A stretch of 64,000 nt of DNA. It comes from Centroberyx gerrardi. Its lineage: Eukaryota; Chordata; Actinopteri; Beryciformes; Berycidae. The position numbers were made by a program, and so were the translations under genes. Shown here piece by piece: positions 2,045-56,881 of the stretch (positions within the stretch are counted from its first letter, which is position 1; the number at the start of each line of letters is the position of its first letter). Below the pieces are notes generated by a model, which was not told where the DNA came from, ran no database searches, and worked only from the letters and a program-made list of their open reading frames with translations. The stretch covers positions 17,630,176 through 17,694,175 of the forward strand of contig NC_136016.1 of the NCBI RefSeq assembly GCF_048128805.1. Reading direction: 5' to 3'.

Positions 2045-4627
2045 CAGCTGCTGTTTCACTGAGATCACCTTGGGACATGGTTTGCAGGTCACAGTCAACA
2101 GAAATGCGTTGCCACTTGCCATTTTGTTTAACTCACTTTAAGTTTCTAATCTTTAACTAAATTGTAATTTGTATGAAATTGTCAATAACTGTCTCTGGAT
2201 CTATCCTTTCCCAGATGGCAGCACCATCAGCAGTGGACGCAAGGTACGAGTGGAGAGCGGTTACTTTTCCCTGGAGAAGACCAAGTCGGAGCCGTCAGCA
2301 CCGCCCATGCAGCCATCCCAGCCACCCCAGCACCTGCCCCTGTCCTCTTCAGCATCCTCCTCCTCGCTAGGAGCCCCCAACCACAGGTACAGCTCCGAGT
2401 CAGATCCCCACAACTCCCCTTATTACCCCTCCCCAGACCCCCTCCCTTCCCCAGGCGCCCTCCTCTCCCCCAGCTACTCCACCATCAGCTCCTCCCAGAG
2501 CTCGCTGGACTCTGAACCCAGCAGCAGCGCGCCCAGCTGGGACGGGCGCAGCGGCGGTGGAGGGAGCGTTAGTAGCGTCAGTGGAGGAGGAGGAGGAGGC
2601 GGCAGGGTGGGCCGGCCCGGCAGGGAGTACGCAGCGCTGTCGGACGTGCCGCGGGCTCGCAGGCTGAGCTACCGCGAGGCGTTCCGCTCGGAGAAGAAGC
2701 GGCAAGAGCTGAGGGCGCGGACGCGGAGTCCCGGCAGAGAGGAGGTGGCCCGGCTGTTTGGGGAGGAGCGCAGGTAAGACGGCATGGATTAGAGACATGC
2801 ACAGCACACTGAAAGATTATACACAGGCGACACTGTCAGTTTCTTGCCACCTGCTGTAAAATGATGACTTATACTAGAAGACTAGACTAGTACTAGAAGA
2901 CCAAATCAGTTCTGACCACAAATCATATACCAGAAACATAAATACAGATTCACTTGTGGTGATGATGCAGCCAAACATAATAGGTAATCATAAACAGGCA
3001 ACTGATTGTTAGCCCTACCCATAGCCCTGCATAGAAATTATTGATGTAATGCAAAGACCTCTATTATGTGAAACTCATAATCAGCATTTCTGTCCTGTAG
3101 CGCCACCTTGTGGCTGCTGTCTTTAGGCACCTTTTATCTCTTGAACATCAATTTCTTTGCCCCCTACACTAGCTTATCAACGGTTTTCAATTAATGATTT
3201 ATGGGAATTAAATGCATGTATTACTTTCTGCGCCTTTTCTATTGGTCTCTGCCTCTTGCTCTTGCTACTTTGCTATTTGGTTTTGTTGTTTTGATCTTTT
3301 CCAGGGGCTTCTGAAAGGAGCTTCCCGGAGCTAATGCTCTACCAACCCTTCCGCCCCTGTCCCAATGCTGCTCCCTGCTGGTCACCGCTGATACCTGCTT
3401 TCTATCATTTCATCTCTGCACTGCCTGGGAGCGCACACATACATTATTTGATTATATACATACCTACACAAACAGACACACACCCTGATTGTGTTTTATA
3501 CATACAGTTCCTTCTTGCTCTCTCTCATACACACACACACTAACAGGTCCAGTGTCTTCAGGTAACGCTGATTGTGCTGCCATTGCTGCTACTCCTGGGA
3601 TCTGGTTATTAATCCTCCAATGACCCATCCTAGACTTCTTCCTCTTCATCTTAAATTTAATCTCTCCCCATATCACACTAGTCTTTCATACTTTGACATA
3701 CTTCTGGCTCATTCTCTTTTGGGGATCATCCTTCTACTTTAATTTACACATTGTTGTCTATGAAAGGGACTTTGTGTCAAGATTAATGTCCAAACTTCCT
3801 ACATATGTAAATGTATCTGCACTTGTATTCTGCACTTATATTGTAATTAGTCCATTGAGGACATTGGTTTTGTCTCAAAGTTGCTTCCATGTTGTTGATT
3901 TTTATGCTGATGCCTGACACCATTTGAGGAAGATGTGCTGCAGCCTGTTCTTATGAACAACCTATTACATGTTATGGCTGATCTTTTATATTTTACTGGG
4001 TTTTCATTGGTATGCTGCAGAAAAGGCACTTTTATAGAAGGATTAAGATGTTTAAGCTTACTTTTTAACTTTGTTAGACTCTATAAGACTTTTTTTTAAT
4101 CTAATTTTAAGTGTGATATGTGTACTGTGCCACACTGTGCGTTGTGCCTGTCCCGCTAAAGCTTGTCTTTTTGTGTCTCCTAGGCGTCCTCAAGTCATTG
4201 GCCGGTTTGAGGAGGGGCAGCATGTAGAGCGTATGGACACAAGCAGCTCCACTGAGCCCTCCTCTAATACCACGCTAACCCAGAGACAAGGCCGCAGCGA
4301 GAGACGCTACCTGGCTAACAAACATGTATGCAAACCTGAATAACCAAATCCAAAAAAAGTGTAAAACACAGTATCAAAGAATTCACTGAAGGACGTATGT
4401 ATGATAAGAAGAGTTATGAGTTAGAAATGATTTCCCTGGTTTGATACGGGGGAATTTCTTAGATCTCCACATTATGTCAAATCATGTAACATGTGATTCT
4501 GTATTTTTAGGAGATGTCACTGGATGCTGGGAAGGAGCGTTCAGTCCCTGACGTGTCCAGCTCCACATTTGCCAACTTAAGAAGAGCCAAGTCACTGGAC
4601 CGCAGAGTCACAGAGTCCTCCATGACT
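1752..4627 (+). CDS. mprip: mprip exons 1752-1974, 2215-2773, 4184-4325, 4511-4627 (linker between the PH domains)
   Basis: Four exons encode the low-complexity linker between the two PH domains, which in mammalian MPRIP belongs to the F-actin-binding N-terminal half. The first starts in phase 0 with [16 protein letters not shown] and splits a codon (G + AT gives Asp) into [24 protein letters not shown]. Exon 2215-2773 is Ser/Pro-rich with a Gly run ([13 protein letters not shown]) and a basic stretch, [21 protein letters not shown]. Exon 4184-4325 carries the conserved [11 protein letters not shown] and RQGRSERR. Exon 4511-4627 carries [14 protein letters not shown], which resembles a 14-3-3 or AGC-kinase target. 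The Ser/Gly expansion is longer than I recall for mammals. Confidence 0.93.
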
Positions 4628-7600
4628 GTGAGTTCTAAGTACAGTTCTCTAAAAGTATACAGAGCCATAACCAGTGGACCACAAAACCATTTTCATGGCT
4701 GGTTGGCATAAATTCTCCTGCTCATGGAGCATGTAGGGTCAAGGACAAGGTGTTTAATGGGAAGGAGGGAGATATGTCAGCAAACCTTTTACTGTGCAGA
4801 AAATAGGGCTGTGATATTTCAAATGATTGATATGTCCTCTAGGGGAGCTGTTGATTGAAATATGTAATCAACATTGGCAGTATGAAAGACAATAGCACAC
4901 TTCTTTGCTTAATGGAAACTCGTAATTGCGATTGTTTGACAGAATTTTTTTCTGGTCAGAATTTTTTAGAACTTTAAAATTGTTTAAATAAAAGTGATTT
5001 CGTTAAAAAAAAAATATGATGTCAGTGTGCAGGATTTAGTGAGTTTGAGTATGATGAAAGGTTTTCACCAATATTGTACTTGATTCATGGACCAAAGATT
5101 ACCTGGAGCTCTAAAGCACCTTGTTTAGAAATCAATTTTGGACACAACTCTCTCTTTAGCAATTAAGTGCAGCCTCTGCGATTTGGAAATTGTTCATATT
5201 GAGATTTGGATTTTTTTTTTTTAATTAATCATTCAGCTCTAGATTACAGTGGCCCTCAGTTCTGCTAAATGCTGCACCGGGATCCCCTCAGGTTTTAGCT
5301 CTACTAGTCCAGCCAGCAGCAAGCTGCTGCTGATCTGAGGTCTGTTCAGGGAATGCTGTTGGGGTGTTCCTGTCAGTGTGTGGTTGGTCTGGCTGGCAAA
5401 CTTGCAGCTGCCAGAACCCCCCACCCACATAGACAGACACACACACACACACACAGAGCACCACCCCGGATATAAATAGCCAGCACAGAGGCTACAGCCG
5501 CAGTTGTGTGTATGTCCATGAGAGACGGAAAGAGACAGATTGTCAACATATGAAGTGTACTGAGTGTGAAGGCAGTTAGCCATCAGAATGACTCTCTGCC
5601 AGACGGTGCCACCACACCTGATGAAGCTCAGCAAAAACAAGGTATTGTTTGAGTGAGCAGAAACCAGTTTTTGGAAGAATGGTTTACTTTAGAGTCTATA
5701 AACAGACTTGAGCTTGGTTTGAATGACTGAGCGAGGCAGTTTGAGTTTCACAGGGAAAGTCCAGCTCACGCCAGTCCGGAGCCACATATTGGCACTGTGA
5801 CTGATTGAACTGATGGTGGTGAACTAAATGTAAACAAATAAAACATAAATGGAGCATTGTTTAGGGAATGTATTCGGATTACATCAGTAATGAGGACTTA
5901 CCTTTTAATACAATGGCAAAACTTAGTAGAAAATGTTTCAACAAAATGTAAACATTGACCACAATGTTAGGATTTGGATTGCATAAGCTAAAAACTTTTC
6001 AACATGATCGTTAAGTTTGTGGGTAACTTGCTGTAGTAGTGTTACGCCTGGCTATTTCTTTTTGCCTGTGTTTTTTTTGTACTTATTTGGTTGAAGTCTA
6101 CTTATTTAGTTGAAAATCTCTCCAGACTAACTGGTAGCCAAGTTAACTATCATTGATAAGGATGAGCTACTTTAGTTGCATCACATATCGCATCACATCA
6201 CATTGATGCCTCTCTGATTTGTTTTCTCTGCAGCCAGATCTGTTGAACTTCAAAAAAGGATGGATGACCAAGCTATATGAAGATGGAATGGTAATTTGTT
6301 TCATTAGTAGAAATGAATGACTGGAGACCTCAACTCTTTTCCCAATTGAACTGCATAAACATCCTGATATTGTATAAATATGGTGTCTTATCCCCCTTTA
6401 GTGGAAGAAACACTGGTTTGTTCTTACAGACCAGAGTCTGAGGTACTACAAGGACTCAATAGCTGAGGAGGTAAGGCTTTTTTCCTTCAAGGGGTTTGTC
6501 AGTATTGTGATTAAGTGGTCATTATTTTATGCCAGTGAATAGGTAAATAACAAGGATTTTTCTTTTTTTTTTCCCTAGGCTTCAGATCTGGATGGTGAGA
6601 TTGACCTTTCCACATGTTACGATGTGACCGAGTTCCCCGTCCAGAGGAACTACGGCTTCCAAATCCTGGTGAGTGTTGATTCTGCATGCCATCAATTCTC
6701 TGCTGTCATTGATCACATCTAAAAAGCTTAAGGTAAAACCCATCGTCTATACGGTGCTGCTCCGCTGTGACCTGCCAGTCTATAAACAGCCTGAGACACC
6801 ATGTGGTGCAAATGTCGGGATCAGGTTTTGCCATTTCTCTTTTTAAAACAATTCTTTGTCCCATCACGAAGGATGTCACTTGACCTGTCATCCCTCTGTG
6901 AAAGGCTGACATCATGGGGGTCTAAATCTGCCACAGACGTTGCCACCCCTGGTTGTCCCCCTGAACCCACGTGCCCCTCATCCTGCACAATATGTTTACC
7001 TAACCTCCTGCATTCAAAAAGCCTGTCCTTGTGTCCACACTTGCTCAACAACACTCATGTTTTGAAAACCCTTATGTATAAGCTATTTTTAAGGCTTTCA
7101 CCCTGAACCATAACGGCATAACAACTATGCAGTTCCATAGAACGTCCTGTGAAACTAATGTAAGGATGCTTAGCTCATATAATCCTTTGGCTGTGAACCA
7201 AACATCTCATCCCTTTAGCATATGCCAAACACTTGCTGGACCTATGTACTTGCTTGAAAGTTAATCATAACTCACCAGCTGATGTCAGTGGGCATTTTGT
7301 TCATGTTACTTATAGATTTCAACTTTACATACAAATCCAGCCTGTATGAGTATGAGGAGAACAGTGACTACAAGGTCATTTGTTTTGTTTACATTGGCTT
7401 GAAGCAGCTTACTCTGGCTATTTTCTCAGGGAATCCAGAAATAGAGTTGTAGAGAGGATCGTTGTCTCTTTGGCTGAGAACAACATGGGTTTAGTGACGA
7501 GAAATTAATAACTACAGTATTTATAACTACTCCCTCTGCTCCATGTTCAGACTGGTGGGGGGCTAGAATTGATCTGAGTGCAGAACCAAAACATCACATT

Positions 7601-10600
7601 GTTGTCTGCATCAAATAAATGGGGTGCCTAAATATTTGATAGGATTCTTGTAAAGTACTACCTCTATTAGAGACAGTACTTATATAGATTAGGGGATGAT
7701 ATTACTGGGTGCAATGTGGTATGTAAATGATTGATTGTATGACACACTGAACAAAACCGTCCTCCACTGTGTTTTGTTTTCCATTCAAGTTTAAAACTGT
7801 GTCTGTTTAATTTATATCAAAGCCCTCCTCCAATGACCTCACCACATATTTGAAAGTAAGCGTTACAAGTGAATAGGTTACAATCGAATAGGTTACAATC
7901 AATTAAGGAGAAGTAACTGATATCTGCTAACTGAAATGGGAAAAGCCATGCTGCTGCATACCAGAAAAGCTTAGGCTTAGAATTTTAAAATTGGCAATAA
8001 GGTCACTGTAAGAGGTCTTTTAAATCGGCATGTTGTCTCATCCCTGTCAGTCATTCTAATGTCATGCCTGCTCTGTTTCCAGTGTAAGGAGGGGGCATGC
8101 ACTCTGTCGGCCATGACCTCTGGGATCCGTCGCAACTGGATTCAGGCCATCATGAAGAATGTGCGGCCCACTATCGCCCCTGATGTCACCCGGTAATGCC
8201 CAAAGAGGATCAACACTCAACCACTGGCAGATATAATAACTGTTTTTCTCACTTATTTTATCTCATTAATCTCTCTCTCCTCCTCGCCCTCTCTTTCCTC
8301 TTTCTCTCTTCCTCCCTCGACTGGTATTTCCAACCTGCTTCCAGGAAAAACGTCTCTTTGAAACTGTCCGTTCTGAAGCCCAGGTTGGAGTGCTTGTGTG
8401 TTGAATATCTCCCCTCCTCAAACAGTGATGTAATTGCTCAGCAATGTCAGCCTCGGCGTGTTTGTCGTCCCACCCTGTGTCATGTGATTGTTGAGTAATG
8501 TCTCCCTGTCAGTTGTGCCACTGTAGAGGCTTGAAGGCCCCACACACTGCTACTATATCAGCCAATTAGAATGATCCACCTTACCTGATAATAATGGTCA
8601 TAATGTGACTATCCACAGAGTAATGTTTGGAGGTGGTCACATAACAATCACAAAACCAACACACAGAAGAAAAAAATGCCATTGAGTTAACAGTAAGGAA
8701 CAGCTGGGGAAGAGAAGTATTTTGTTGCATTCCTATATTCCAAAGCAGCCGTAACAACAATCAAGTATTCAGCTGAGGGTTTTGTTTTTTTGGATACTTT
8801 AACACTGTTATGTCAGTGTTTTTAATGTTGAGTCTTGCCTTTCAGAGGACTCATCACATGTACGTATGGTACTGTATACATGCTTTGAGCTGCATTTACC
8901 GATTAGTCAGACACCTTGCTGTGCGCAAGTCTGTCTCTCAGGCGGCTCTCTCCAGGGGGAATGTGTGATATTTTTGGCATTTCTACACAGACGCCACACA
9001 GACACCTCTTCCTTATTCTGGGGCTGTGCCCCTTCTCCTTTTCCCCTTACCCCCCACTCCTGCCACCTCCACACAACGTGATGGAAATAGATTATTCGGT
9101 CAGGCTACTTTTTTTAAGTGCTCTGCTCCTCAACACTAAAAGTGCCAAGCAGTGTGCGGATTACTGGGAACACATTGCAGTAATTGCAAAAGCTACTGTA
9201 TAAACGGGAGTGGACAAAGAAGCTGAAGGCAGGCGACTGCACCAGAACCATTAGGCCTGAGCCTCAGACTACAGCTGTGGACACCAAGAGAAACACCAAA
9301 GCTGCTTTGAGCCCAATGTGCAATTACAAAAGTTTGCCAAATAAAATGTTGAATGTTTAGATGCTTTGACTTTGATACATTCCTTTCAGTTAATCTCGCT
9401 TGTAGTAGTATGCTGCACTGCCAAAAATGTATGCACTAATGGTTTGTCCATCAAGGCTTTATGTAATAGTAATGTGAGTAGCTTGAGCTGATGGAAATGT
9501 TGGCATTCATCATCAGGTTGTGGTTTAAGCCATCCGGTCTAACTATTTTATTTGTTTTTGGTTTTTGTTCTTATCCCCTCAGATCCCTCCCTGAGGAGAA
9601 GGTAAAAGGGCAAGTGGTGTTGGAGCCATGTCCACAGGCCTCCACTGAGCCCAGCCCCAGTCCTGAGGCCCCCAAGATGGATGTCCACACACAGCCAGCT
9701 GGTAGCAGTGTCTCTGTGCCGGCCTCTGAGCCACGCAAAAGTCGGGTTCGTGAGCGCAGACGAGAGGGCCGCTCCAAGACCTACGACTGGTCTGAGTTCA
9801 AAGCGGGACAGACAGAAAAGTCCATGAGGGATAGAGCGGACACAGTCGACCTCAGCTCTCCGTCATCATCCTCCACAACCACTTCCTCTTGCTGTTCCTC
9901 CTCATCCCCTTCCTCCTCAGCATCCTCTCCTATCTCTAACACCTCCTCTCCCCAGACCTCCTCTGTCTCAGGTTCTCAACCACTTTCCGTGGCAACTGCA
10001 GAGATAGAAAAGGAGCGAGCACGCTGGCTCGAGGAAAGGAAGGGCATCCTGCAGCACACCACAACCAGTGCAACCCACACGCCAAATACTGTTACGGTTA
10101 CCATGACTACCACATTAAACACTACATCTGGGGTGCAGCCATGGACTTCTGAACGTCAGGACCAGGGGAAGATGGAAGTAGACCACCCTACAGCCATGCA
10201 CACTGACCCCAGTGAAGAAAAGAGTGGGCAGAAGGGTAACAGGACCTCAGATGTCCAGGTAGAGATTGAGCAGCGCTGGCATCAGGTGGAGACAACACCG
10301 TTAAGAGAAGAGAAGCAAGTGCCCATCAGTACAAATATAGGAAACTCTGTTAACTCTGATAGATTGCCTGCACATGAACTTGCTGCCCTTCTAGACAAAG
10401 AGGTATGTTTCCCGAACATGTTCAGATACAGTATGATTATGGTACTAATGGTATGATACTATGGTACTGCATCTTCTGTCATTCATTCATTTTTTTTGTA
10501 CCTGGTACTTTGTTCAGCTGGGACAGAAGCAAAAGGAGCTGGACCGACTGCAGCAACAGAACAATCTTTTACAGGAACAACTGGAAGATGCAAGAGGGAG

Positions 10601-13600
10601 AGAACAAAGTGCCAGGGAGGGCTATGTACTGCAGGTACCACACTCACCATCCATTAGAGAGGATTCATTTGGTATTGAATAGTTGACACCATGAACAAAA
10701 AGCATTGTAACATGTTTTTAGGCAAGGGAATCTTTTGTATGTTTGGAATGGTTTGCAGACTTTGTAAAATAGAATAAATGTACTGGTCAAATACAATACA
10801 AAGCTGTAAATGTTGTACTGTATGTATTATTGTAATACAGTGTACTGGCTCATGGTAGATTTGTGTGGCTACTGTAACTTGTATGAAATTCTACTAACAG
10901 GTGTGGGTGCTTAGTCTCTAAAACTGATATGCATGGTTGTGGTGTTCTTAGCATGAATTTTCACTAACTGTTTTACGGAGTTTCACATCTCCTGGGAAAA
11001 TAATTGATTTGGACTGATATGCTCAAGGTAAGAAACTTGATCAAGAAGCCTTGCGCTGTGCTTTTTCTCTCTGTTCATCTGTGCTTTGTCTGTGTGTCTT
11101 TTCCAAGCTTGATTTGTGCATGCTTTTGGGTGTTTTGGAATTGCATAATTTAACTAATTCCTTTATACATCATGCACATGTTATTATATTTTTTAAATGA
11201 GATTATAGAACAGGCAGGATGGGTATTTTGTTGTATGACATCACATTCACTGTTCACAAGTTTAATGCAATTAAGGAAGTTATGGGTTGGTCTTAAAATA
11301 AGCACTTGATTGCTTTGCTGTCAGTTCACATCCATGTTTATATCTCTATATTATTCACCCACTTTTAAGTTTATTTTTTTGTCATTCAAACTTTTCAACT
11401 TCCAAGTCATCTCTGAAAAAGCACAGTGAAAGCTTGGGAAAATGCTTCTCAAAAGAAAGGTTTTGGTATGAACATTAAATGGAAAAGGGAAGAAAACATT
11501 TTTTTCCCTGGTTACCCCTGAGATGTGGTTCTCCGTATGTGGTAGGGGAAGTGAGGTGATGTCACTAATGAAACTGTCTCATCAATCTTTTCAAGAGTGC
11601 AACACCCCCCTCCACCTCACCACACAGAGTGCCATGGCAACGCTTGCACAAGCTCAACCAAGATTTGCAGGGTGAGGTGGAGGCCCAGAAGCGCAAGCAG
11701 GACCTTGCTCAGCAGCAGGTTCAGACACTAAGGAGAAGCTACACCGAAGCCCAGGACGCTGTAGACCGACATGAGGTTGACATCCAGGCTCTGCAGGCTA
11801 AACTGGCCTCTGCAATGGCTGAAATCTTAGCTAGTGAGCAGGCTGTGGCCCGCATGCGTAACGAGCTCAAGCTAGAGCAAGAGCGTTCCAGGGAACAGGA
11901 AGAGGAATGGGGATCCAGTGAGGCCACCCTACGTGCCCAGCTAAGGGACAGCGAGGACAGACTCCGTGAAGTAGAGGCCAGCCTCTTGGAGAGAAATCAG
12001 GCCCTCAGGCACCTGGAACGTCAGCAGGCCCTGCAGAGGGACCACCTGAGGGAGGTACAGAGGCTCCAAGAGAGGCTACAGGAGGTGACTGCCAGACTAT
12101 GCGCTACTGAAGAGGGTCAGGCACTGAAGGAGGAGCGCCTGAGGAAGGAGCAGCATAGCATACAAGAGAATCATGAGAGGGAAAGACAGAGCCTGAGTAG
12201 AAGATTAGCTGAAGCTGAAAGTGTACGGAAAGAGATTGACGACAGACTGCTGGAGGCTGAGCAGCAGGTGGAGACCCTGTTAAGAGGGAGGCAGGCCTTA
12301 GGAGGAAAAGAGGGCAGGGAGGAAGTGCTGAAGCTGCAAGAGGAACTGGCCCAGAAGACTGGTATGGTTGAGAAACTGAGAGAGAGTGTCCGTAGGCTAG
12401 AGGAAGAGAAAGGCCATCTCACATGCCACTGTCAGGAGCTTCTCAACCAGATTGCAGAGGCAGACCGCGAGGTGAACAAGCTCCGTAATCGTCTGGAAAC
12501 GGAAGAAGCTGATTACTACACCCTTGAACACTCTTATGAGAGGGCTTCTGAAGAGTTCCAGAAGATGAGCCAGTTCCTCAGAGAAAAAGAGGAGGAGATC
12601 CGGCAGACTAAGGAAATGTACGAGAGGCTGGTGGAACGCAAGGACAATGACCTGAAAGAGGCCCTTGTTAAGATGACTGCACTTGGCAACAGCCTGGAGG
12701 AGACGGAACAGAAGTTGCAAGCTAAGGAGGAGCTTCTCTGTCAAATAAGTAATAGCCTCTTAGATAAGGTTGAGCCCTGCAGTGCTGAAAGGGATCTGCA
12801 AGCTAAGCTTGTGGTTGCAGAGGACCGTATTGCAGAGCTAGAGCAGCACCTCAATGCCCTGCAGTTGGGGTACGCTGGCCTCCGCATGGAAAGGCAGCGA
12901 ATCCCAGAACAGCACACACAGGAAAGGGTTACGACCTCACCCTCCTTGCCAACAAATACAGAACTGTCACTTGCCTTTGACACTCCATCCAAGACAACAA
13001 ACTCCTCAGATGATAAGGAGTCTCAGGCTAAGAGGCCAAGGATACGTTTTTCCAGCATTCAGTGCCAAAAATACATCAACTTAGAGGGCCTGGACTCCAG
13101 TCATGTGAGCAGCACCTTTATAGATACAAGCCAGAAAGTTAACCAAGATGTGAGCCAAGATGTCGGTCCAACTGTAGGAACAAGCTCCTCTGATATCACA
13201 TTCCATTACACGAGTGATCCAGAGAAGTTTATCTCCATCATACATGCCCTAGAGACTAAACTGCTGGCCACTGAGGAAAAGCTAAGAAACCTCACACAGA
13301 ACCTTGCAGAGCAAAGAGCTGTCCAAGTAGAAGACCTGTCCATGACTGATCTAAAGGAGATGGATGATAAACCTCACCAAGAGACAGAACCCAGTTGTGG
13401 AAGTGGGTGTCAGATTAGTGCTGCCAATAACGAGTATGCCAAGGCCCTAGTGTGTGTGGAAACAAGTCGAGAGAAAGTCAGGGCTATTCTCAGTGGCTCT
13501 CATGAGACCACCGATTCACAGTTGCACTCCTTGTCAGAGATAGAGAATGAGTTGTTCAATGCAACATTGTACATCAGACAAGGGGAAAAGACCTTGGAAG

Positions 13601-16600
13601 AGCCCTCACTAGGGGTCCATCAAAATCAAACCCAAGAGACTCTTAATAGCAAGGACTTAGATGAAGAAACAATGCGCCTCTTTGCCAAAACCCTGTCTTT
13701 TGAGGCAATTGTTTTGAACAAGATGGCTTTGTTAATACAAAATTCAAAGTCTGACCTGCTACAAGGTCTTGCTGAGATATGGGAAGACATCGAGAACATT
13801 AAAAGAGGTGATGAAGATTGCTTGGCTATAGTTTATGCTGATGTCTTGACCAGGAAGTTGATGTTGGAGAGTGCATTTTGGAAAGAACGGGAGAAAGCAG
13901 AGACAGAATGTGAACATTCGAATGTTGCTAAATCAAGAGAGGGCGGAGTTTCAGCTGATGCAGATATTGATGCCACAGTTATCTTAAACACCTTCATTAA
14001 AGCTGAACTAGCTTACTCTATTCAAAACCTCAAAGTTTTCTATGAGGAAAAATTCAGAATGCTCAAAAGGGAGCTGGCCGAAGCCCATAATAACCTACAA
14101 CAAAGGGAGTTGGCCTTGAAAGCAATTTTTGAAGCTTTCAAAAGGCCTGATTTGAAAAACGTAATCAAAGAAGTGAGAAATAACTTTGGTTTTAGTCAAC
14201 AGAGGTTAGCTGATATTCGTCCTCCTGAACTTGCTCCCTATATGGAGCAGATTGAAATGGAAGAGGCCAGAGACCTGGCAGAGGAAATCATAGATAGACA
14301 ATTGGCTGGAGACATGCCATCTTGCAGTGTTGACTCTATTGAGTCACTGCAAAATGCACAAGACAGCCTGGCTGCCGAGCTTCAAAGACAGGCAGCAATC
14401 CTTCATAGATATGCTCACGAGATGGAGAGTGGTGGCAACCATCCTGGAGTGGCCAACATGATCCGTTCTCTCGCAGGGCACCAAGCTACACATAATTTCA
14501 CAAGTAGCTCCCTTTGTATGCGCGAAGCTCTTATCCAGGCTCAAGTGGCTTATGTTGCCTGCAGGTTACGAGCCATGCATGAACGGGACTTGGGTCGGTG
14601 TCAACAGGCAGGTCAAAACATGGATGCTCTTGTCCAGGAGCATGCCCGCAATGTCATTGCCATCCAAGAGAAATTCAAAGCATCCTTGCAGGAGGAGCAC
14701 CTGAGCTTCACGCAAACAGTGGCCACTCTCCAGATGGAGAACCAAACACTGAAGAGTGAAATCGGAAAACGTGTGAACCAGCTCTCCCAGCAGCAGGAGC
14801 AACTTGCCCACTTGGAGGAGCAATTCCATATGGAGACTGAAGAGCTGAGGCAGAGGCACAAGCAAGAGCTAAGCCAAGCAGAGCAGGGCCGTGCCTCCAC
14901 AGAGCTGGCCCTCATGGAGACCACAGCTGACAGCCAACGAAAGCTAGAGGTTCTGCTGGTGGATATGGACACCATGGAGGAGCGGCATGAGGGCCACGTG
15001 AGGAAACTGGAGGAGCAGTTCCAGGAGAGGATCTGTGAGCTCCAGCATATCCATGAGGAGGAGATTCAGAAGTTGCATGCCCAGTATATGGATACCATTC
15101 GCTGTATCCAAGAGCACCAGCAGGGCAAGAAATACCCTGAGGTCTCCCACTCACCCCAGAGTGATGAGGCCGCAGCACCAATGGAAGAGGAGGAGCAGGG
15201 GAAGGGGGAGGAAGCACAGACCATGTCAGAGGTGGACCCCATGGTGGTTCTGAAGGACAGGATCCAGGAGCTGGAGACCCAGATGAACACCATGAGGGAC
15301 GAACTGGAGAACAAGCACCTAGAAGGAGATGTGGCCAGCCTGAGAGAGAAATACCAGAGAGACTTTGAAAGTCTTAAGGTTTTTGCTCTTTCATTTTACC
15401 TTAGTATTTTTTTTTTTTATGAATGAGTAGTAGAATAGTAAAATAGCAAAATATTTGGTTGCTTTTGTCCTTCAAACAAACAGTAGTGTTCATCATTCCA
15501 TATTAGGCCATTACTAATCTTCAAGGAGGAATTGAAATTGGAAAATGGCATAAATTGAGAAATTATTGTTCATTTAGAAACTGCATCTTGGATTATATCA
15601 ATTTGCTTGTAACCAGTAATGTGATTATAACTGTTCATAGCTTTTACTTAATGAAAAACAAAACTATCCACAGCAGTATGTCATCACTTAAGTCCTAGGT
15701 CCTAATGAGTAAAACAATAATTCTCACCTGCATGTCTCACTTTCACCACATCATTGCCTCTTCATTTAGGCATCAGTAGACTGTACTCATTTCCCACCTT
15801 CAGAAATAGACTGAACCACAGTCTGTCAGTGACGAAATGCAGCCTCTCAGGAAAATAAATTTACTGCCTTAACTCGCTCTCTTACTAACCTAGCTTGGCT
15901 TTAGTTAATAAAAAGCTTGCATGGCTTCCTGCAATGTGATTTTGCTTGAGCTTGTCAATAATGCACCATGTAGCCTAGTGAGCTGTTAACAGATATTGCA
16001 CTGAAGTCGTAGTCACAAATTAGAATATAGTTAATTGATAAGTGGAAAATTCAGGGGATTTTCATGATGACAGCATGTTAACCCTTCCGTCCCCTAGGCC
16101 ACATGTGAACGTGGCTTTGCAGCAATGGAGGAAACACACCAGAAGGTCATAGAGGACATCCAGAGGCAGCACCAGAGGGAGGTCTCTAAACTCATGGAAG
16201 AAAGAGAGAGACTGTTGGCTGAGGAAACTGCAGCCACAATTGCTGGTAAAGAAACCAACTGTATTACCAACTGTAATTGATATAATCTCTTTTAAACAAG
16301 ATTGACATAATCGTGTGTGATCTATCTTTAATCCAGCTATTGAAGCTATGAAGAATGCACACAAGGAGGAACTGGAGAAGACCCAGCGCTCCCAACTGAG
16401 TGGACTGAACTCTGACATTGATGAGCTTCGCTTACAATATGAGTATGTTTTCTGACAAGAACATAACTTTCTACACCACTAGACTGTGTTTATCTGTGTG
16501 AATGAGAAGCAGGGTAGCTTTCAGTTGCAGTAGGGCAAATGTAAAAAACATGAGCAATGGTCTTGTAGAAATGGAACATGGAATTTTCATCATTATTCAA

Positions 16601-19379: not shown

Positions 19380-20760
19380 ATATTGGGAATCTGAAGTTTC
19401 TTTTCTCTTTGCTAGCCTTGGTTTTTGGTCAGATTGTTAAGGCCATGCCACCATCAGGCGGAGACTCTTACAGCAAATGGACAAAATCTATCAGTATCAA
19501 TTCTAAACCTGGACTGGCTGCTTCTCTGTTCGTAATGAAAAGTTGTCACTTTTTTTTTTTGTATTCTTGGAAAAAAGTCTCTTCATTTTAGTTTACATAA
19601 CTGAATCAATCCTGTGTAAGTTTTCTTTAATAACCTTAATATGGAATCTGTCCAAGGTGGATAAGTGTCAAGCTTAAGCTGTGTTACCTTTTGAGAGGGA
19701 TAAGTGACAGCATTTTATTTTTTTATTGATCCACCAAAATGCCAAAACAGACAGCAATACACGGTATGAATAATATATATTTCCCAGTATGAATTAATTA
19801 AATATCTGCTGTATTTTATTGTTTTGGTTACAATTTCTATATCTAATAATTTTGTTTATGTGTTTTATGTTGCACCAGTTGTGTTGTACATAACTACTGG
19901 ATATGTGGAAGAGTATGGTTTGCCATTGATTGTTGGGGCATCTGCTGTACTATACCTATGGTTTGATTGATAGTGGAAAAAAATGTGATGCTTATATTGC
20001 TGATTGATGTATGAGAGATTTATAAAATTATGAGTGTCTGTGTGTGAAGGGGTACAGAGGGGGGGGGGGGTTGCACTTATCACTTGACTACTTGAGGAAG
20101 CTGTTTCTTTTATTTGTCTCAAATTGGTGTAGTGACTTCAAGTCTATTATTGCAGTGCAACCAAACATCATGACTTCTGTCAAATATGGTAAACAACCGT
20201 GACTTGTTAGTGATACTGAGGTTTTTTTTATTTTTAATCTCTTACAACATGAATTTGAGTTTGCTCAGTTTTGAGTTTGGTGTGAGAATTTCATCTCAAA
20301 AAAATTGACACTATTTAGGACTTTGCATGACTGTATGGTAATTTGAATTGCAGAATGATCACTTTGCCTCATTTTCCTACTTTATGCTTTTGTGGAACTC
20401 TTAACATTAATAAGCTTTGCTTTGCAAGTCCTACTGTTTAGGTGTTGAGATTGAAATGTTTTACTGTAAGCGGCGGTCTTGAAGCACTTGGCCCAATCCC
20501 TGACCTCTCACTGAAATCTGTCTTTGAAATAGTCTTTGTGCCTCAACTGAGTGAAGAATATACACATCCATGAAACCTGTGCAGCTATGGATACACACTG
20601 TATAGTATTCAGATCACGCCTTGTATATATATGCCACACGGAAAACTTCTGTGTTTTGTTTTAAACTTGTACCTTGCTTACTAGCTCTATATTAAATATA
20701 TATATGAATATTTTTTATTTTCATTTGAATGTATAATGTCAAATAAATGAAGTGTTTCTG
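19380..20760 (+). other. mprip 3' untranslated region
   Basis: AT-rich sequence after the TGA of last exon B, with a run of G at about 20061-20070. It runs to an AATAAA signal at 20742-20747, about 1.36 kb from the stop. The exact cleavage site is not visible from sequence alone. Confidence 0.65.
20742..20747 (+). promoter_or_regulatory. Likely mprip polyadenylation signal
   Basis: AATAAA is followed within 30 bp by a GT/T-rich stretch. It is the best signal downstream of last exon B. Confidence 0.6.
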
Positions 20761-21735: not shown

Positions 21736-24700
21736 CTAGCCAATTAGCCTAGCCAACTCATCCACTCTTCCTCCTTCCTCCTCCTCCTCTTCCTCCTCAT
21801 TTTCTCTCAAAGCATCTACCAGTCTGACCCAGAAAGCGTCCTGCTCCTGTGTGTTTCCAGGCCAGAGGAGGTAGGTCTTCTTGCGTACGATCTTGCGCAG
21901 GCGTGTGTATGGAGAGAGGCAGTGCTCTGGTATCTCCTCCAGGAACACCAGCAGCAGGACATCACTGCCGTCACACAGAAGCCTCAGACTGGCCAGCTGG
22001 AACTCCATCGTGCACCACTCACTCCGCAGGAAGTGACGTGTCACCACACAGATGGTGTGGCGGGAGCTGTAGATGGCCGCCTCGATGTTCTCCATAACGG
22101 CGCTGCCGGGGCGGAAGTCTCGGTGGTGGAGGCACAGCCTGAACCTCGGCCCACCGGCAGCCGGCCTCTCCAGCCGGGGCAGCAGTTGTCCCATCACCCA
22201 GGCCTCGTCCCTGGAGCTGTAGGAGATGAAGGCGTCATACCGGAAGTTGGCCCCCTGCACCCCCCTCCGTCCTCTGAGTTTTGCCCTGAGGACGAGCGCC
22301 AGGTAGCGCAGGGTGGGGCCCTGTGTGTGCCAGGCCAGACACACACATACAAACAGCACGTCTATCACAGAGCTGGCAATGAAGAGAGCGTAGGACATCT
22401 GGTCATAAGAGCAGGCCTTATCATCAAACTGCCACAGGTAGGGCGACCTCCTGTTGTTGTCACAGCGGAGGTCGTACAGGTAGGACACCTGGAGGGAACG
22501 AAATGAATGAAACTGCCATCAGATTTTCCACTAGGCCTAAAACTTGAGAGAAATGTATCATTTGAGAAGAAAAGCTACCACACACTTGGCTTAAAGTCTT
22601 GGAGACAGGTGCAAAGGGACTAATGGAGCCAGCCTTAGACCAATAGGAAAACAAGTCCTGTACACTGATTAAACTTACTTTATTCCAAACAATGCATACA
22701 ACGTTTCGGTCTGTAAGACCTTCCTCAGGTATTCAAAACACGTGTACTCTACCTGACATTTATAGTGGTGCCAATGGATCAATTAGCCGACACATTTTTT
22801 TGTATACCTGAGGAAGGTCTTATAGACCGAAGCGTTGAAATGTTATATGCATTTTTTGGAATTAAGTAATTCTCAATATATGTAACAATGTCTGTAGCTT
22901 CTACTACCTGTGTGTGAGTATTATGGACGGCCCAGGTCTTGAACCAGGCGTTTTCACAGGTGCAGGCAAATGGGTTGTCGCTGATGTCCAAGAAACGCAA
23001 TCTGGAAACAAACACAAAGGTTACTGATTTGCTTAAATTACATCCTAAAGTCAGTGTTTTGGAGTTTGGCCTGTGTCTTGCTTCTAAGGGAAGCAAGAAA
23101 GGAGGTAAAGTCGGAAATTAAGAAGGCAAGAATAAATATCAAGAGATGATAGAGGCTCATCTTAGCAACAACCTGATGACAGGGTCACATAACCAGAAAA
23201 ACAGTGGGATGGTGAGCCTGCACGGTTTTAACTCAAACACACAACCAGTCAATGAACTGGATAGTTTTTATTTGCGTCCTGATTTTCAACATGATGACAA
23301 GATGACAACTGGTCCTGAAACAGACTTTACTGTACAGGAATTTGAGTTTTTTGAGGGCCCAGATCCATATAATGTACTTAGGGAGGTACCTAAGACTTGT
23401 GCTGGTCAACTCAGCGGTATTTTTAAACTACATTTTATAAAATCGCTGTAGAGTACCGAGCCCCCAGGCCACTGTTGTTCCCATTGATCAAAAGAACAGG
23501 CCTTCGACTGTGGCATTAACCGCTTCTAATGGTGTAGGCCTATATGAGAAGCTACAATCTGGTTTCAGACCCAAATCAAATTACTGAGAAGTTTTGTTGA
23601 GGTCCTGAATGACCAATTCTGTTGGTAGCTGATTCTCCTTTGAGAACTATTTGCTTTAGATATTTCAGTGGCCTCTGTACCTTGGCAGAGCTTCCAACAG
23701 CGGCTTGTCCATAGTGTGGAGGTGGTTAGACTGGACCTTCAGGATCTCCAGTGAATTCCCTGGGGGCAGCAGGTTAGCAGGCAGAGCGTCCAGGTCGGCC
23801 CTGTAAAGAGTCAGCTTCTTCAGCCCTTTGAGAGGTAAGAGCACTGCACTCAGGTTGGTCTTGCTCATAACCATGCCAGCTATGTACAGAGCCGTCAGAT
23901 TGACCAGAGGAACGAAGGCGTCGGGATGGAAGTCACCCATGATGCTGTGTCCGATGGCAAGACTGACAAGTCGCCGCTGACCCTCAAAGAAATGCGGTCC
24001 AATATACCCAATGCCACGGCCACCGGGACCCTGGTAGTTCAACTCCAATACCTCCAAAGTGAACATGTGGTTAATGAGACCGACAGACAAATAGATCTAT
24101 ACTTGCAATGCATTACATTTCTACTGCCAATCATGAAGTGCATAATGACTATAAGAAACTGGTCATACCTTCAGAGAAGTCAGGTTGATGAAAGGAGTTT
24201 CATACAGCTTAAAATAGAGGCGGTTGTTGTACAGAATGAGTCCGCTCAAACTCACTAGGCCTGATAGAATGGATGGTGTCAGCCTCTTGATGCGGTTCCC
24301 ACTTAGGTCCAGGTATCTACAGGATGGATGGATGGATGTACAGTATATATATATAATTGGATGGACAGAGAGGACAGTTGGATGAATGCACAACCATACA
24401 CATGCACAAGCAGAATAAATAATACTAAATACCTGAGTTCTCTGAGGTCTTGGAAGGAGCCCTCTTCAATGAAATCGATAATGTTCAAACTGAGGTTGAG
24501 CTTCACTAGTCTCCACAGTTTACAGAAGGGCTGGTTGGTGATGTATTTTAGCAGATTGAACTGCAAGTATAGCTGCTGAAGGTGGGTGAGGGCACTGAAT
24601 ATCTTCGGTGTGAGCTCAGTGATTTCGTTTTTCAGGATAGACAGGCGAGTCAGCTTCTTCAGAGGGACAAACCAGTTAGGGTCCAGTTCGCGTATTTTGC

Positions 24701-25955
24701 TTCGGTCAAAAGCTAAAAAGTCGAGGTGGATCAGGTCTCTGAATGTATTCGGGTGAATGGCTAGCTTGTTTCGATTCAGCTGTAGCGTTTTCAGGCCTTC
24801 ATAGCCATCAAATGTAGTTTGAGATATCTCCTTCAACCCACAGTTGTTGAGATCAAGTCTGCTGGTGTTCCTCGTGGCCACCGCCAACCGGGCAACATTC
24901 CCCAGGTTAGCATTCTCAATAACAACCATTTTTGGAGTGGCACAGTCCAGGAGACTGGAGTTATGCTGCGGAAACCTGGATCCTCTTAGGTCAACCTGAA
25001 TCAAGTTATTAAAGTCACATTAGATTCATTTAAAACTGATTCTCATAGCAGAGTTAAAGCACACATTATAAGAACTATAAATAGATGTTGTATAATAATG
25101 AGGAAAGAAATGCTGCATAACAATTACATGTACCTCCACTCTCTCAAGTTGGTCCATTCCTTTCAGCAATCCGCAGATGGTGAAAGAGGATTTCTCCACA
25201 AACACAGAAAACGTCACCCAAGAAAGATTCCTCTTGGTCTCCACAGAGAGTCCTGCCAGCACCTCTGCTTTAGTCCCCTTCAGAAGCAGACTCTTCAGCC
25301 TGGGGTTGTAGGCAAAGACATCGGCCTGGAGCTCCAGCTCTGAGTTGTTGGACAGCTTGATGTACTCAAGAGCAGGGAACCCGCTCACGTTTAACCTCTG
25401 GATGTTGTTTGCTAAAAGATATAGCCGCTTAAGAGTGGAGGAGACGCCACACTCTCCACAGCTGAAAGTCTTCAGCCTGTTCAGAGACAGATCCACTTCT
25501 TGAATCCCAGGGAGGAAACGAAAAAAACCTGGCAAGATTCTGACAATTTGGTTATGGGTTAAAAGGAGGATTCGTAGGCTGGTGAGTTCATCGAAGGCAT
25601 CGGGGTGGATGTGTGAGATGTTGTTGCAGGTCAGGTTGAGACGATCCAGGCGCTTCAGTCCTCTGAATTCTCCTCCTCTCAGAGAGACCAGCTGGTTCTG
25701 GCTCAGGTTCAGGTCTGCGAGCTTGAGCAAGCGTCTGAAGCATCCAGAGGGGATGGTCCTGATCCTGTTCTTGCACAGGTTGACTGCCGTTATGTTTTCT
25801 GGGATCATGCTAGTGACTTCAGAGAGGTTGGCGATGTTCTTGTTGAAGCACCACATGGTTTCCCCGGCTGGGTAGTTCTGAGAGCAGCCCTTAAAGCCAA
25901 AACCCCAGCAGGCCGAGGCGCTGAGCAGAAGCAAGAACAGAGAAGTTCGCACCAT
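21736..25955 (-). CDS. Toll-like receptor, fish TLR11-family type (six coding exons, 916 aa)
   Basis: Type I innate receptor that senses microbial ligands through leucine-rich repeats and signals through its TIR domain. Coding exons, 5' to 3': 25955-25134, 24995-24433, 24316-24169, 24051-23681, 23001-22908, 22488-21736, joined in phases 0/2/0/2/0; total 2751 nt. Signal peptide MVRTSLFLLLLSASACWGF, then an N-terminal Cys motif, many LRRs (LxxLxLSxNxL), and an LRRCT split across exons (ACTCENAWF, then LRCDNN and KACSYDQ). The TM helix is near residues 698-720 and the TIR about 748-896, with box 1 YDAFISY, BB loop RDFRPG (Pro793) and box 3 FW at 885-886. It ends in an acidic tail with eight Glu in a row. 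The TIR resembles TLR22/TLR23-type receptors, but I cannot fix the member. It is convergent with mprip. An AG acceptor at 25999-26000 hints at a 5' non-coding exon upstream. Confidence 0.9.
22673..22875. repeat. Inverted repeat (fold-back) in a TLR intron
   Basis: Two arms of roughly 65 bp face each other (about 22673-22740 and 22799-22870) around a loop of about 60 bp. Each contains ACCTGAGGAAGGTCTT followed by AGACCGAA and CGTTG, with about 80-85% match by eye. The GAGGAAGG...CCGAAACGTTG motif recurs in vertebrate repeats. It lies between the LRRCT and TIR exons. Confidence 0.7.
23541..23629 (+). repeat. Decayed non-LTR retrotransposon fragment (reverse transcriptase-like)
   Basis: Translation gives YEKLQSGFRPKSN, a stop, then a shifted frame with VLLRS. 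This resembles the conserved (F)EKLQSGFRxxHSTETALLKV block of LINE reverse transcriptases. It is frame-broken and sits within a TLR intron. The match is from motif recognition only. Confidence 0.4.
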
Positions 25956-29686: not shown

Positions 29687-32153
29687 TTAGTTGTCTATAG
29701 CTGTCAAGGGGCTAGGAGGACACTGGGCTTCTAGTCGCTGTATGGACGGTGGTCTCTTTTGGGTTTTGGCAGAGGAGGGGATGTCGGTGAAGACCACAGG
29801 TCGGCCGTCGGGGCAGAGCAGGACGCTGGAGTCGGCCTCACACTTAGTGGTTCTGCTTGGCCATAAGGCCTCAGCCGGACTGGGCCTCAAACCCAGGCCG
29901 CTGGGGGAGAGAACCTCTGTGTTTACCACCGACACACCCGCCTGACTCATCTTGATCAGCATGTCCAGCGACTGCTTACGACTCTCCAGCGAAGCCTTCA
30001 TTGCCTTCCTCTCGCTCTCCTCCTCATCGTCGTCCTTTTCTTCCTCTACCTCCTCGTCTTCCTCCTCCGTCTCTGTTGTGTTGTCTTTCAGGCCGCCATC
30101 CTCTCTCACGCCCTGGTCACCGTGGGCGACCGCATCTGTGGAGTCTTTCTTCACCGACAGGTCGAGAGGCCCTTCGCTCTGGCGGGCCGTCCGCTCCAGC
30201 GCCTGGTGGATGTGGGAGAGCTCGCTGCGGATTTTGTTCAGGTGTTCCCAGAGGTGGCGCTGGGCGGGAAGGTCCTCTTTCTCCAGGTGGGAGATTTTGC
30301 GCTCAGCCTCCTGGTACTCCTGCAGGGCCTTGGAGAGGTCGCTGAGGAGGGCAGCCACTGACTCTGAAGCTCCCTCCCCCATTGTCCGGGCAGAGGTCGA
30401 GTCCTGGCTATTGGGTCCCCCACAAGTCGGAAGAGAGGATGATTCACTATTGGGACTGGTGAGGGAATCACTGTACCAGGATTCGGTAGGCCGAGTCTGA
30501 GGCTGAACGCTCTGTAAACTAAGGAGGAGAGAAGTATTTAGAGATTTTCAGTTAGATACCTACGACATTTACGTCTACCACAAAAAGAAATACCCCTACA
30601 TGTATGACACATACTATAGATAATTCTATGATGAAAATAACGATGATCACACTACTACTACTGCTACTGCTTCTAGTACTGTTACTATTAATAACAAGAA
30701 GAAGAAGAGGAAGAAGTAGAAGAAGAAGAGTGTATGGGGATTCTTACCTGCTATGGAGGAGAAGCTTGTCCGCTGCCATAGTAAGAGTTGAAGCATTCTG
30801 GATGTTCTTTAGAAGGTCCAAGGTGAAGCCCATGGCCGGCTTTTTCTCCACGGGGGCCTCGTGGTTCCCCAGTGGGGCCCCGGTCCTCTTGAGGCCCCAC
30901 CCTGCTTTACCCTCCTTGGCTGTAACCTGCAGTTTATCCCCCAGCCTGTAGCCTGGGTCAGGGGACTCTCTCTGCGGTGACACCCAGCCAGCAGGGGACA
31001 CCGTGGTGGTCCCCGGCCGCAAAGCAGGCACTTTCCACAGATTGACTTTGGGCTGGTAGCCGGACAAGGGATTAGCCTCCAAACTGTTTGCGGAGGTTTT
31101 GAGCCCTTTGCTGGCGTCAGTCTGCCCAGAGGCTGGTCCGAAGGTGTGCTCACACAGGAAGGGGTAGTAGAGACGAGGAGGGAGGAGGGCTCTGTCTGCG
31201 TGAGGGTGCGCGCTGGAGGCAGGGTGCATGAGCTGAGCGGCCGAAGCGAGGAAGGGAAGCTGGGCTAGCTGCGCGTGGGTTTGGGCAGTGACGTTGGCGG
31301 CAGCAGTGGGAATAGCTGAGTTCACGTAGGAGAAGAGGCTGGGGCTTATGGGGTAGCCCACCCCGAGGACTGACAGGTTGAGTCCGGTGGGATCCTGGTA
31401 GTCCACCAGGTTGGGCGGAGGAGGGTAGCAGGGGATTGAACTGGCCACGCGGGGCTGGGCACCTTCAGCCTTGGCCTTAGTGTGGCTGGTAGCTAGCAGC
31501 CGCCACTGCTCTGACAGCAGACCGGGGGCTGTTAGACATGTTTTGGACAGCTTATAGTGTTTCAGCTGGGCCTCTACCTCCACCGAGCGTGCCCGTAGAA
31601 GCTGGTCTTCCAGGGAGAACATGTCAGCCATCAGGAGCTCTGATTCTGGCCGTTTGGTTTTCTTGGTGGCGCCTTCTACAGCGTCTCCTCTGTTGCTGCC
31701 GTTACTGGAGCTCTCCTTTGTGAGCTCTGCTCCCTCCGCTCGTCCTCCCTCCTCTTCATCTTCTGGCCCCTGGCTTTCCCTGTCCTCTCCTTCCTCCTCC
31801 ATTATCCTTCGCTGCCTGGGTCGCTCCTCAGTCCCTGTTACTTGCTCTGGCTCATCTTTCCCAGTTGCATGGATGCCGTGTGCCTGCTGGAGGGGTCGGA
31901 GCTGGTCCGGGTGCAGAATGTTTCCCTTTTTATACGGCCAGTCTGACTCTATGAGCAGGGACAGGGAGTTCTTACATAGGCTGTACTTCATATGGTTGTA
32001 CAGGTGGGACTTCTCCATGCAGGTGAAGGGGCACTGGAAGCATTTGTAGTTGTAGGGTTTGCCCCATGGCCGGGGAATGTAGTGGGGCTTCTTGGGTTTG
32101 CGCTCCTTGTGTTTGCAGGCGGACGTCACTTTACATGCGTCGTCCTTGGACAT
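29687..32153 (-). CDS. prr35: PRR35, C2HC zinc-finger protein of the ZNF750 family
   Basis: Probable nuclear transcription cofactor; its function is little studied, while its relative ZNF750 regulates epidermal differentiation. Coding exons 32153-30748 and 30518-29687 are joined through a split Ser codon (AG + T) across a 229-bp intron; 745 residues, longer than human PRR35 (about 570). The N-terminus has KPKKPHYIPRPWGKPY (19-34) followed by a single finger C-x2-C-x12-H-x5-C (C38, C41, H54, C60). Further family blocks are SIPCYPPPPN, LSVLGVGYPISPSLFSY, a helical DLSKALQEYQEAERK / LSHIHQALERT, PLDLSVKK (PLDLS at 586-590) and TTKCEADSSV. PLDLS is a classic CtBP-binding motif. An acidic run, EEEDEEVEEEKDDDEEE, lies between these blocks. 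It has two likely 5' non-coding exons and a TATA promoter upstream. Confidence 0.93.
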
Positions 32154-32269
32154 GATTGAGATAGACCGCTCACAGTCTTGGTGTTTATCAAGATTATGTG
32201 ACTGAGTTAGACTAATGAGAATTCAAGATAAGTTTTTTAGATTTTTTTTCTTTTCTGCCAGGGTACATT

Positions 32270-35548: not shown

Positions 35549-36118
35549 TGACTAGGAGCATTGCCCGGAGGCACTACAATACAGCAGCTCCCCCTCCCTC
35601 CCTCCCTCCTCTCTCCTGCCTCCCTCCCCTGGATTGTCAAATGTGGTCTCTACCTTGCAGCCAGGATGCAATATAACAACTTCAACAATATTGGCAAAGG
35701 TTAGGTTAGTGGGTTCTGTCGTTATAACCGAGGTTAAAAATGAGATTTGTCTGGATGAATTCCTTCAGGATAATGCAGTTTTCATGGAAGCTATAGTCTA
35801 CACGGAGCTGCTTAACTTGTCTGCCTATTTTATTGCTGTCACTGGAGTAAAGCAGGAGACAAATACAGTAGGCTACTTACCTTGAAACTGAGATAATGAG
35901 GTGTTTTAGTTATTACAGTCTCTCTGTCTAAACTCTCCTAAGCATTATCCACTAAACGGTACTGTATATGTAACTGTTTGGAGTGCAGACGAGAAGTACA
36001 ACTCTGTCAGCCGCACAGTGTGTACACAGGCATTACTGTGTTGATTTATTTCTATGGTAAGGCCTGTATTAAAGGAGGCATGAGACAGCAGGGGCCAGTG
36101 TATTATCTCTAATAGCCC

Positions 36119-55373: not shown

Positions 55374-56881
55374 TCAGTCATCGTCCACCACCATCACGTT
55401 CCCGTTCAGCTCGTACTCGATGGTGCCCCAGTCGAAGATGTCGCCCTTGGGGACCCTGTGTCCGTAGTGCCAGGCCTGGATCAAGCTCCTGGACAGCACA
55501 AAGTCCCACATGTTGAGATCGGTCACCTCCCCTACGAAGCTCTGCACGGCCTCCAGGTCCCCCAGGTGCTTGTCGGGGTCCTGCCCCAGGAGGACGGTGC
55601 CCTTCGGACGGATGGTGTGCCCGGGCTTGTAGACCTGGTAGGTGCTGCGGCGCCCGTCCACCCAGAAGGCGGCGAGGCCCGTCCCGGACTCCCAGGTCAG
55701 GCAGAGGCTGGTGCGGAAGGTGGTGATGGGCGGCAGGTGGAAGAAGGCGCCGTCGCCGCTCAGGTAGAAGGAGATGCGTCCGTCCTTCTCGCGCCACACG
55801 TTGAGCTCGTCGTAGTCGGGCGTGCGGTAGGCGAACAGGATGATCTGCCGCTCGCCCTGCAGCTCGGTGGCCACGCGCATGCAGAGGGTGAAGGCCCGCA
55901 GCTCCATCTCCTTCAGGGGGATCAGGGCCACGAAGCTGAAGTCCGTCTCATAAGGGAAGACCAGGACTTTGCTGCTCAGACCCACTGGATCAACACAGGA
56001 TAGGATAACTAAGACAACAGAACTGTAAAACTGAACTGAGTGCGGAGAACATAACCCCAGAGGTGAAATCTGCACACACAGCCAAGTAATGTGGGACAAA
56101 GAAACTGATGTGGAAGTGTTATTATTACCATTACTTCTGATAGGATTCTGCTCCTGAAACCATACCTTGTGTGGCAGAGGAGAGGCCAAACAGGCCCGAG
56201 GACAAACTGAAGACACCAAGCAGAAATACAGCAAACTTCTCACTGTTGACACTCTGCAGACACACAGAACCAGTGGTGGAAGAAGCACTCAAATGCTTTA
56301 CTCAAGTAAAAGTAGAGATACCTTAATGGGAAATTACTCCAGTAAAAGTGAAAGTCCTGCATTCAAAATTCTAGTAAAAGTATCAAAGTATTAGCAATAC
56401 TTTAGCCTCAAAAGTAAAATCATTTATTCTTAAGGACAGTCTATTATAGATTGTGTTAAAGTTGTTGTTCATTTACTGCTCCCTTTTTCAGTTTGGTGAC
56501 TTGAACTTTGATAATATATCATATTTTATGAACTTATCCTACACACATCTTATATGCAAAACCTCATTCTACAAACTAGTGACTTCAGGTGTCAGAATTG
56601 TAGTGGAGTAAAAAGTGCAATATTTCCATTTTGAAATGTATTGGAAAAGTGCAAAGTCTCATTAAATGTAAATACTAAAGGAAAGTAAAGGTACCTCAAA
56701 ATTCTACTTAAGTACAGTACTTGAGTAAATGTACTTAGTTACTTTCCACTACTGTACAGAACATCCATCTATTATCTCAGAATAATCCTCATTGAAGTCA
56801 TATCCATTATCATAGGCTGAAGACATATTGGAAACTAAATTATGTTGAAAAGTAACAGGGAAAAACAACTTTTCTTACCAT
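55374..56881 (-). CDS. Short pentraxin (C-reactive protein / serum amyloid P type)
   Basis: Secreted pattern-recognition lectin that binds phosphocholine or other ligands with calcium and forms pentamers. Three coding exons: 56881-56879 (ATG alone, donor ATG|gtaag), 56253-56166 and 55984-55374, joined in phase to 233 residues. The start MSVNSEKFAVFLLGVFS is a signal peptide ending near residue 29. The domain shows FPYETDFSFV, the disulphide pair C65/C125, the pentraxin signature region SLCLTWES (the usual His is Ser), FWVDGR, VLLGQDPDKH, and VGEVTDLNMWDFVLS. Against human CRP, the calcium ligand positions Glu138/Gln139 read Asp166/Pro167, Asn61 reads Tyr88, while the Asp140, Glu147 and Gln150 equivalents are kept. 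A hAT-like element fills most of intron 1. stub1 lies upstream on the same strand. CRP versus SAP cannot be settled here. Confidence 0.9.
56271..56754. mobile_element. hAT-like non-autonomous element in the pentraxin intron 1
   Basis: Ends CAGTGGTGGAA and TTCCACTACTG are inverted copies, flanked by 8-bp duplications with one mismatch (CACAGAAC 56263-56270, TACAGAAC 56755-56762). At 484 bp it has no transposase. The interior carries the common fish ACTCAAGTAAAAGTA motifs. In transcript direction its end lies 17 nt before the acceptor of exon 56253-56166. Confidence 0.85.

Follow-up and report, generated by a model that had tools for sequence, protein, structure and literature searches.

Introduction

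Work on MPRIP treats the protein as a scaffold recruiting myosin phosphatase to actin, and its binding sites for myosin phosphatase and RhoA lie in the coiled-coil half of the protein. Canonical MPRIP (M-RIP, p116Rip) possesses a first PH domain (PH1), a predicted nuclear-localisation region and an actin-binding N-terminus, as described in PMC8068864. The closest described system is that of the paralogue TRIOBP, which is described as being expressed via two promoters, the second of which gives Tara/TRIOBP-1 (PMC5996455), with a translation start located in alternative exon 11a and six putative TRIOBP promoters also being mentioned (PMC5712175). Exon 11a contributes 61 residues, or 2 from a second start codon, so that TRIOBP-1 has two possible starts 59 residues apart, corresponding to forms of 652 or 593 residues, and the extra peptide is described as disordered and comparatively poorly conserved (PMC7663296). 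The long forms of the two genes differ in that TRIOBP has upstream R1/R2 repeats (PMC5996455) while MPRIP has a first PH domain. The duplication that separated the two genes probably occurred early in vertebrates.

A further isoform difference of MPRIP is a reported variant that skips a 63-bp exon in vemurafenib-resistant melanoma cells (PMC9312936); it comes from human cells and arises by skipping of an internal exon, not from an alternative promoter, and is in these respects unlike the candidate considered here. An earlier note on this DNA proposed an internal TATA promoter and an in-frame ATG exon inside mprip, and knew of no description of a short isoform for that gene. An open-licence literature search agrees, as the titles and abstract openings among the matches listed contained no mention of an internal promoter of MPRIP.

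Results

Host gene and intron

The window, that is the whole stretch of DNA that was analysed, comprises 64,000 nucleotides from the fish Centroberyx gerrardi. A tblastn search with a human MPRIP query identified mprip through + strand matches to successive exons between 1737 and 19373, the same search also returning many chance rows elsewhere at E <= 10. On the + strand below position 20,000 and at E <= 1e-3, human MPRIP (1038 residues) yielded 15 rows and 1018 bits, as compared to 9 rows and 484 bits for human TRIOBP-1, which is a shorter query (593 residues); a like-for-like comparison of the first three PH2 exons gave 107 bits for MPRIP versus 86 bits for TRIOBP. These matches favour mprip over the paralogue triobp as the identity of the gene. 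From the tblastn matches with MPRIP, the window holds the gene from approximately human residue 164 to its end, with PH1 presumably located upstream of the window. The parts of the gene that bear on the candidate are as follows.

4544 to 4627, + strand: 3' portion of the canonical mprip exon preceding the intron (tblastn with human MPRIP; junction translated)
4628 to 6233, + strand: intron of 1606 bases holding the candidate, with acceptor TTTTCTCTGCAG/CCA
6234 to 6290, + strand: first PH2 exon, phase 0 at both ends (junction translation)
6402 to 6470, + strand: PH2 exon 2 (junction translation)
6579 to 6668, + strand: PH2 exon 3 (junction translation)
8083 to 8192, + strand: PH2 exon 4 (junction translation)

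The canonical exon reads ...RRVTESSMT at its 3' end at 4627, where a phase-0 donor, ACT/GTGAGT, is present, and the acceptor CTGCAG directly precedes 6234, at which the PH2 exon begins in phase 0. Among solved structures the best sequence matches of PH2 were the PH domains of PLEKHA7, PLEKHA6 and kin, which are of no help with regard to the candidate.

Between the coiled-coil exons of mprip, 11572 to 15426 (+ strand) form one open stretch of 1284 codons, with a sub-threshold Pfam match to TMF_TATA_bd (24.4 bits, where the cut-off is 29.1). Since this stretch matches the 1038-residue human MPRIP only through weak, repetitive coiled-coil-like alignments, a longer MPRIP form is likely.

Candidate promoter

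In agreement with the earlier note, TATAAATAG is found at 5471, inside the mprip intron 4628 to 6233, the position being exact to the base. The elements of the candidate are listed below.

5405 to 5466, + strand: possible proximal elements, namely an E-box CAGCTG at 5405 and CCACCC at 5421 and 5461 (motif scan)
5470 to 5484, + strand: TATA box ATATAAATAGCCAGC (15-position TBP matrix)
5499 to 5504, + strand: initiator CGCAGT (BBCABW), with the predicted +1 A at 5502 (motif scan)
5502 to 5641, + strand: predicted alternative first exon of 140 nt, with donor AAG/GTATTG, as deduced from the sequence
5512 to 5579, + strand: three out-of-frame upstream ATGs (5512, 5518 and 5550) with short uORFs, none having a purine at -3
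5588 to 5641, + strand: 18-codon frame, with a second in-frame ATG at 5621 (7 codons; ORF reading, junction translation)

With the 15-position TBP matrix the TATA box at 5471 scores 12.0 of 16.7 bits and ranks first among 63,986 + strand positions, a rank that was unchanged under three backgrounds. Shorter versions of the matrix, run with the window background, gave 9 sites on the + strand and 18 on the - strand that are equal or better (8 positions) and 4 and 8 such sites, respectively (10 positions), 5471 being counted in each case; the site is singled out by the 15-position matrix and not by the 8- or 10-position versions. The window's only TATA-matrix match above that at 5471 is GTATAAAAAGGGAAA at 31935 on the - strand (12.1 bits), which is without an initiator at 28-33 bases, and a TATA site of 10.2 bits with an initiator at 30 begins at 36066 (+ strand, matrix start). 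TATAAATAG itself occurs in the 64-kb window in three copies on the + strand and none on the - strand; some in-phase exon follows two of the three copies, and one of at least 10 codons follows a single copy.

The A of the initiator (5502) lies 31 bases past the first T of the TATA box. The background rate at which an initiator is encountered is 5% of positions for a distance of 30-32 and 10% for 28-33. On both strands, initiators accompany 2 of the 22 TATA sites of at least 9 bits (5471 and 36066) and 4 of the 45 sites of at least 8 bits, which is about the chance rate of 10% for the window; 5471 is the only one of the 22 that combines an initiator with an in-phase exon. The initiator at this spacing, together with the start context of ATG 5588, the best at hand, renders the promoter half of the proposal somewhat stronger than was known when it was first made.

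A scan of the region 5250-5650 for 13 motifs found four that were clearly above expectation, CCACCC (2 seen versus 0.25 expected), CANNTG (4 sites, or 8 counting both strands, versus 4.35), CAGCTG (1 site, or 2 counting both strands, versus 0.48) and TATAWAWR (1 versus 0.31), while MEF2, CArG, MCAT (strict), GATA, BREu and MTE were absent from it. A muscle promoter is not claimed: E-boxes and CCACCC exceed expectation, yet no strict MEF2, CArG or MCAT site accompanies them. G+C content is 0.50 at 5251-5750 and lower in overlapping or adjacent 500-base windows (0.33-0.44 before and 0.37-0.40 after). The CpG observed/expected ratio is 0.19 at 5250-5650, and there is no CpG island, which is compatible with a TATA promoter and is no proof of one; low CpG combined with a TATA box would be more in keeping with activity in particular tissues than with housekeeping expression.

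Candidate first exon

The frame opened by ATG 5588 continues for 18 codons to a phase-0 GT donor after 5641, as the earlier note had stated, and translation confirmed that this phase equals that of the first PH2 exon at 6234 (both 0). Joining 5641 to 6234 gives a product that reads KNK-PDLLNFK across the junction and whose PH domain is complete (Pfam PF00169, 68.3 bits, profile positions 3-104 of 105). ATG 5588 alone among the five ATGs in 5480-5659 has a purine at -3 (A). An in-frame TGA at 5567 precedes it in the same frame, so that the exon is either a first exon or would need an acceptor within its last 72 bases. A cassette exon was considered and is not our main reading, given this TGA and given that no pyrimidine-rich acceptor was evident by eye between it and the ATG.

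The donor AAG/GTATTG is mediocre, with 4.7 bits. When the best GT within 15 bases was sought for each of 18 mprip exon ends, 17 ends had one; 12 of these 17 sites outscore the candidate donor, and among the five that score lower some may not be true donors. Among all 3728 GT dinucleotides on the + strand, 350 score as well as or better than it. A second donor, TGA/GTGAGC after 5652, scores 3.8 bits and would put the 5588 frame out of phase. Opposite the candidate exon, 5239-5688 on the - strand form a 149-codon stop-free stretch that probably arose by chance.

Chance expectation

Of 9100 positions sampled on each strand, 7.7% (+) and 7.0% (-) are followed by an ATG exon of at least 18 codons that ends in phase 0 at a donor scoring 4.6 bits or more, and inside the intron 4628-6233 the same is true of 12% (1346 positions). 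Taken by itself, an in-phase ATG exon is nothing out of the ordinary. Just one of the 49 TATAWAWR sites in the window, namely 5471, is followed by such an exon of at least 18 codons. In 2000 first-order Markov copies of the intron, TATAAATAG appeared in 0.4%, TATAWAWR with any in-phase exon in 4.1% and TATAWAWR with one of at least 18 codons in 0.85%. The features on which the proposal was originally based thus exceed chance weakly when taken alone.

Addition of the initiator lowers the expectation for a single intron, as a TATA box of the score at 5471 with an initiator occurred in 0.13% of 3000 Markov intron copies. Random 64-kb windows, searched on both strands, contained a TATA and initiator pair of this quality in 85 of the 300 order-2 runs and 80 of the 300 order-4 runs; when an in-phase exon was also required, with a purine at -3 of its ATG, 6 and 15 runs remained, respectively. 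These figures flatter the site somewhat, as the initiator and the -3 rule came in only once the TATA box had been noticed. A filter that drops some TATA sites gave the pair in 46/150 and 37/150 random windows and the full arrangement in 6/150, 3/150 and 0/20. The whole arrangement is somewhat better than chance, with 2-5% of random Markov windows containing it.

Discussion

A short MPRIP driven by an internal promoter is plausible and unproven, and it would arise as follows. Transcription by RNA polymerase II would begin near 5502, at the initiator 31 bases past the TATA box (counted from its first T), ribosomes would bypass three weak upstream ATGs to initiate at 5588 or 5621, and the transcript would be spliced from 5641 to 6234. 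The predicted product would lack PH1, the nuclear-localisation region and the greater part of the actin-binding N-terminus, and would retain an intact PH2 and the coiled-coil exons, in a layout like that of TRIOBP-1 (Tara). Such a form might, for example, still bind myosin phosphatase and RhoA and be targeted differently.

Coincidence is narrowly the likeliest single reading of the locus, and we put its probability somewhat below even; an intronic TATAAATAG would then happen to have a fortuitous initiator, an ATG and a cryptic GT beside it, and no meaningful initiation would take place. Several of the results above are in keeping with this, as an ATG-to-donor stretch of this kind follows 7-12% of positions, the donor after 5641 is mediocre, a TATA box with an initiator arises in 80-85 of 300 random windows, initiators occur beside good TATA sites here at the chance rate (2/22), 27 sites on both strands, 5471 among them, match the TATA core at least equally well, and the initiator and the -3 rule were applied only after the TATA box had been seen. 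Against it, the joint arrangement is uncommon (6/300 and 15/300 random windows), and the candidate lies on the right strand, in a G+C-richer stretch and in the very intron that houses an exon of this kind in the paralogue. Of the functional mechanisms we favour an internal promoter, with a first exon of its own, in the intron before PH2, and we regard it as a tentative but serious contender, with somewhat better than one chance in three.

It is also conceivable, and in our estimation unlikely, that a real promoter or enhancer initiates transcription here and no short MPRIP results, the transcript being non-coding, subject to decay through its uORFs, or spliced from the donor after 5652 or another out-of-phase site. 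The three upstream ATGs with their short uORFs and the presence of the second donor (3.8 bits, out of phase with the 5588 frame) would permit this, whereas none of the upstream ATGs has the purine at -3 that 5588 has (A), and the in-phase donor outscores that at 5652. If the gene makes a Tara-like protein, its start could instead be ATG 4622 of the canonical exon, used through internal initiation or a different promoter, and not 5588. The exon before PH2 ends in ATG ACT, and the sequence at the canonical junction, 4622-4627 joined to 6234, equals the start of the 593-residue Tara. However, ATG 4622 has a poor context (T at -3), no TATAWA begins between 3901 and 4629, and human MPRIP has V in place of the M; we consider a start at 4622 highly improbable.

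The proposed internal promoter of mprip resembles the TRIOBP-1/Tara system in combining an internal promoter with an in-frame alternative first exon ahead of the homologous PH domain (PMC7663296, PMC5712175, PMC5996455), in a product composed of a PH domain and coiled coils, and in having two possible in-frame start codons. The earlier note had Tara begin at the equivalent residue; the analogy is apt in kind, since TRIOBP uses alternative exon 11a, and the equivalence of residues is loose, as that exon supplies 61 (or 2) residues and the mprip candidate 18 (or 7). TRIOBP-1 has, moreover, been shown experimentally, whereas the short form of mprip is a prediction from sequence. With canonical MPRIP the candidate short form would share the gene and the PH2 and coiled-coil exons, and would differ in being without PH1, the predicted NLS region and the actin-binding N-terminus that PMC8068864 describes. 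Conservation of the 18-residue peptide, which had been suggested as a test, is too strict a demand because the exon 11a peptide is itself described as comparatively poorly conserved (PMC7663296); the TATA box, the initiator spacing and the phase of the donor constitute a better conservation test.

That both members of the MPRIP/TRIOBP family have kept an internal promoter at the same intron since their duplication, each gene having a long and a short form, seems doubtful to us; were it true, the long form would be the actin-targeted one and the short form a PH2-coiled-coil protein, and this isoform design would be older than the split of the two genes. A short MPRIP, if real, would be a new isoform of a known design; as it would lack the N-terminus that targets actin, it could act as a competitor of the canonical scaffold or redirect it, and knock-outs that hit early exons only would be incomplete. 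As alternative promoters are common, the interest of the locus would be moderate even then, and an old design shared with TRIOBP would raise it.

Other searches and neighbouring features

The possibility that the candidate is part of a repeat was set aside: 5240-5700 gave 87 self-match rows in the window at E <= 1, and beyond the match to itself only two 19-base matches (E 0.29) lay outside the CA-rich stretch and its edges. No tandem array was found at 4600-6300, nor did a structured RNA reach the Rfam gathering score in that region, and a scan for bacterial-type promoters, irrelevant here, found nothing. Comparison of 5400-5650 with plasmid sequences gave no match. A pattern search with the PH2 protein gave 3 pattern-matching stretches in viral contigs and 19 in genome contigs, with 0 confirmed in either set, and an exact 22-base pattern had no match in viral contigs.

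Downstream of mprip, on the opposite strand, open stretches at 21736-22515 and 24303-25016 (- strand) contain a TIR domain and leucine-rich repeats, respectively, and together look like one Toll-like-receptor gene. Further open stretches on the - strand are situated at 30744-32219, with a zf-C2H2_7 zinc finger (101.4 bits), and at 55374-56285, with a Pentaxin domain (150.4 bits).
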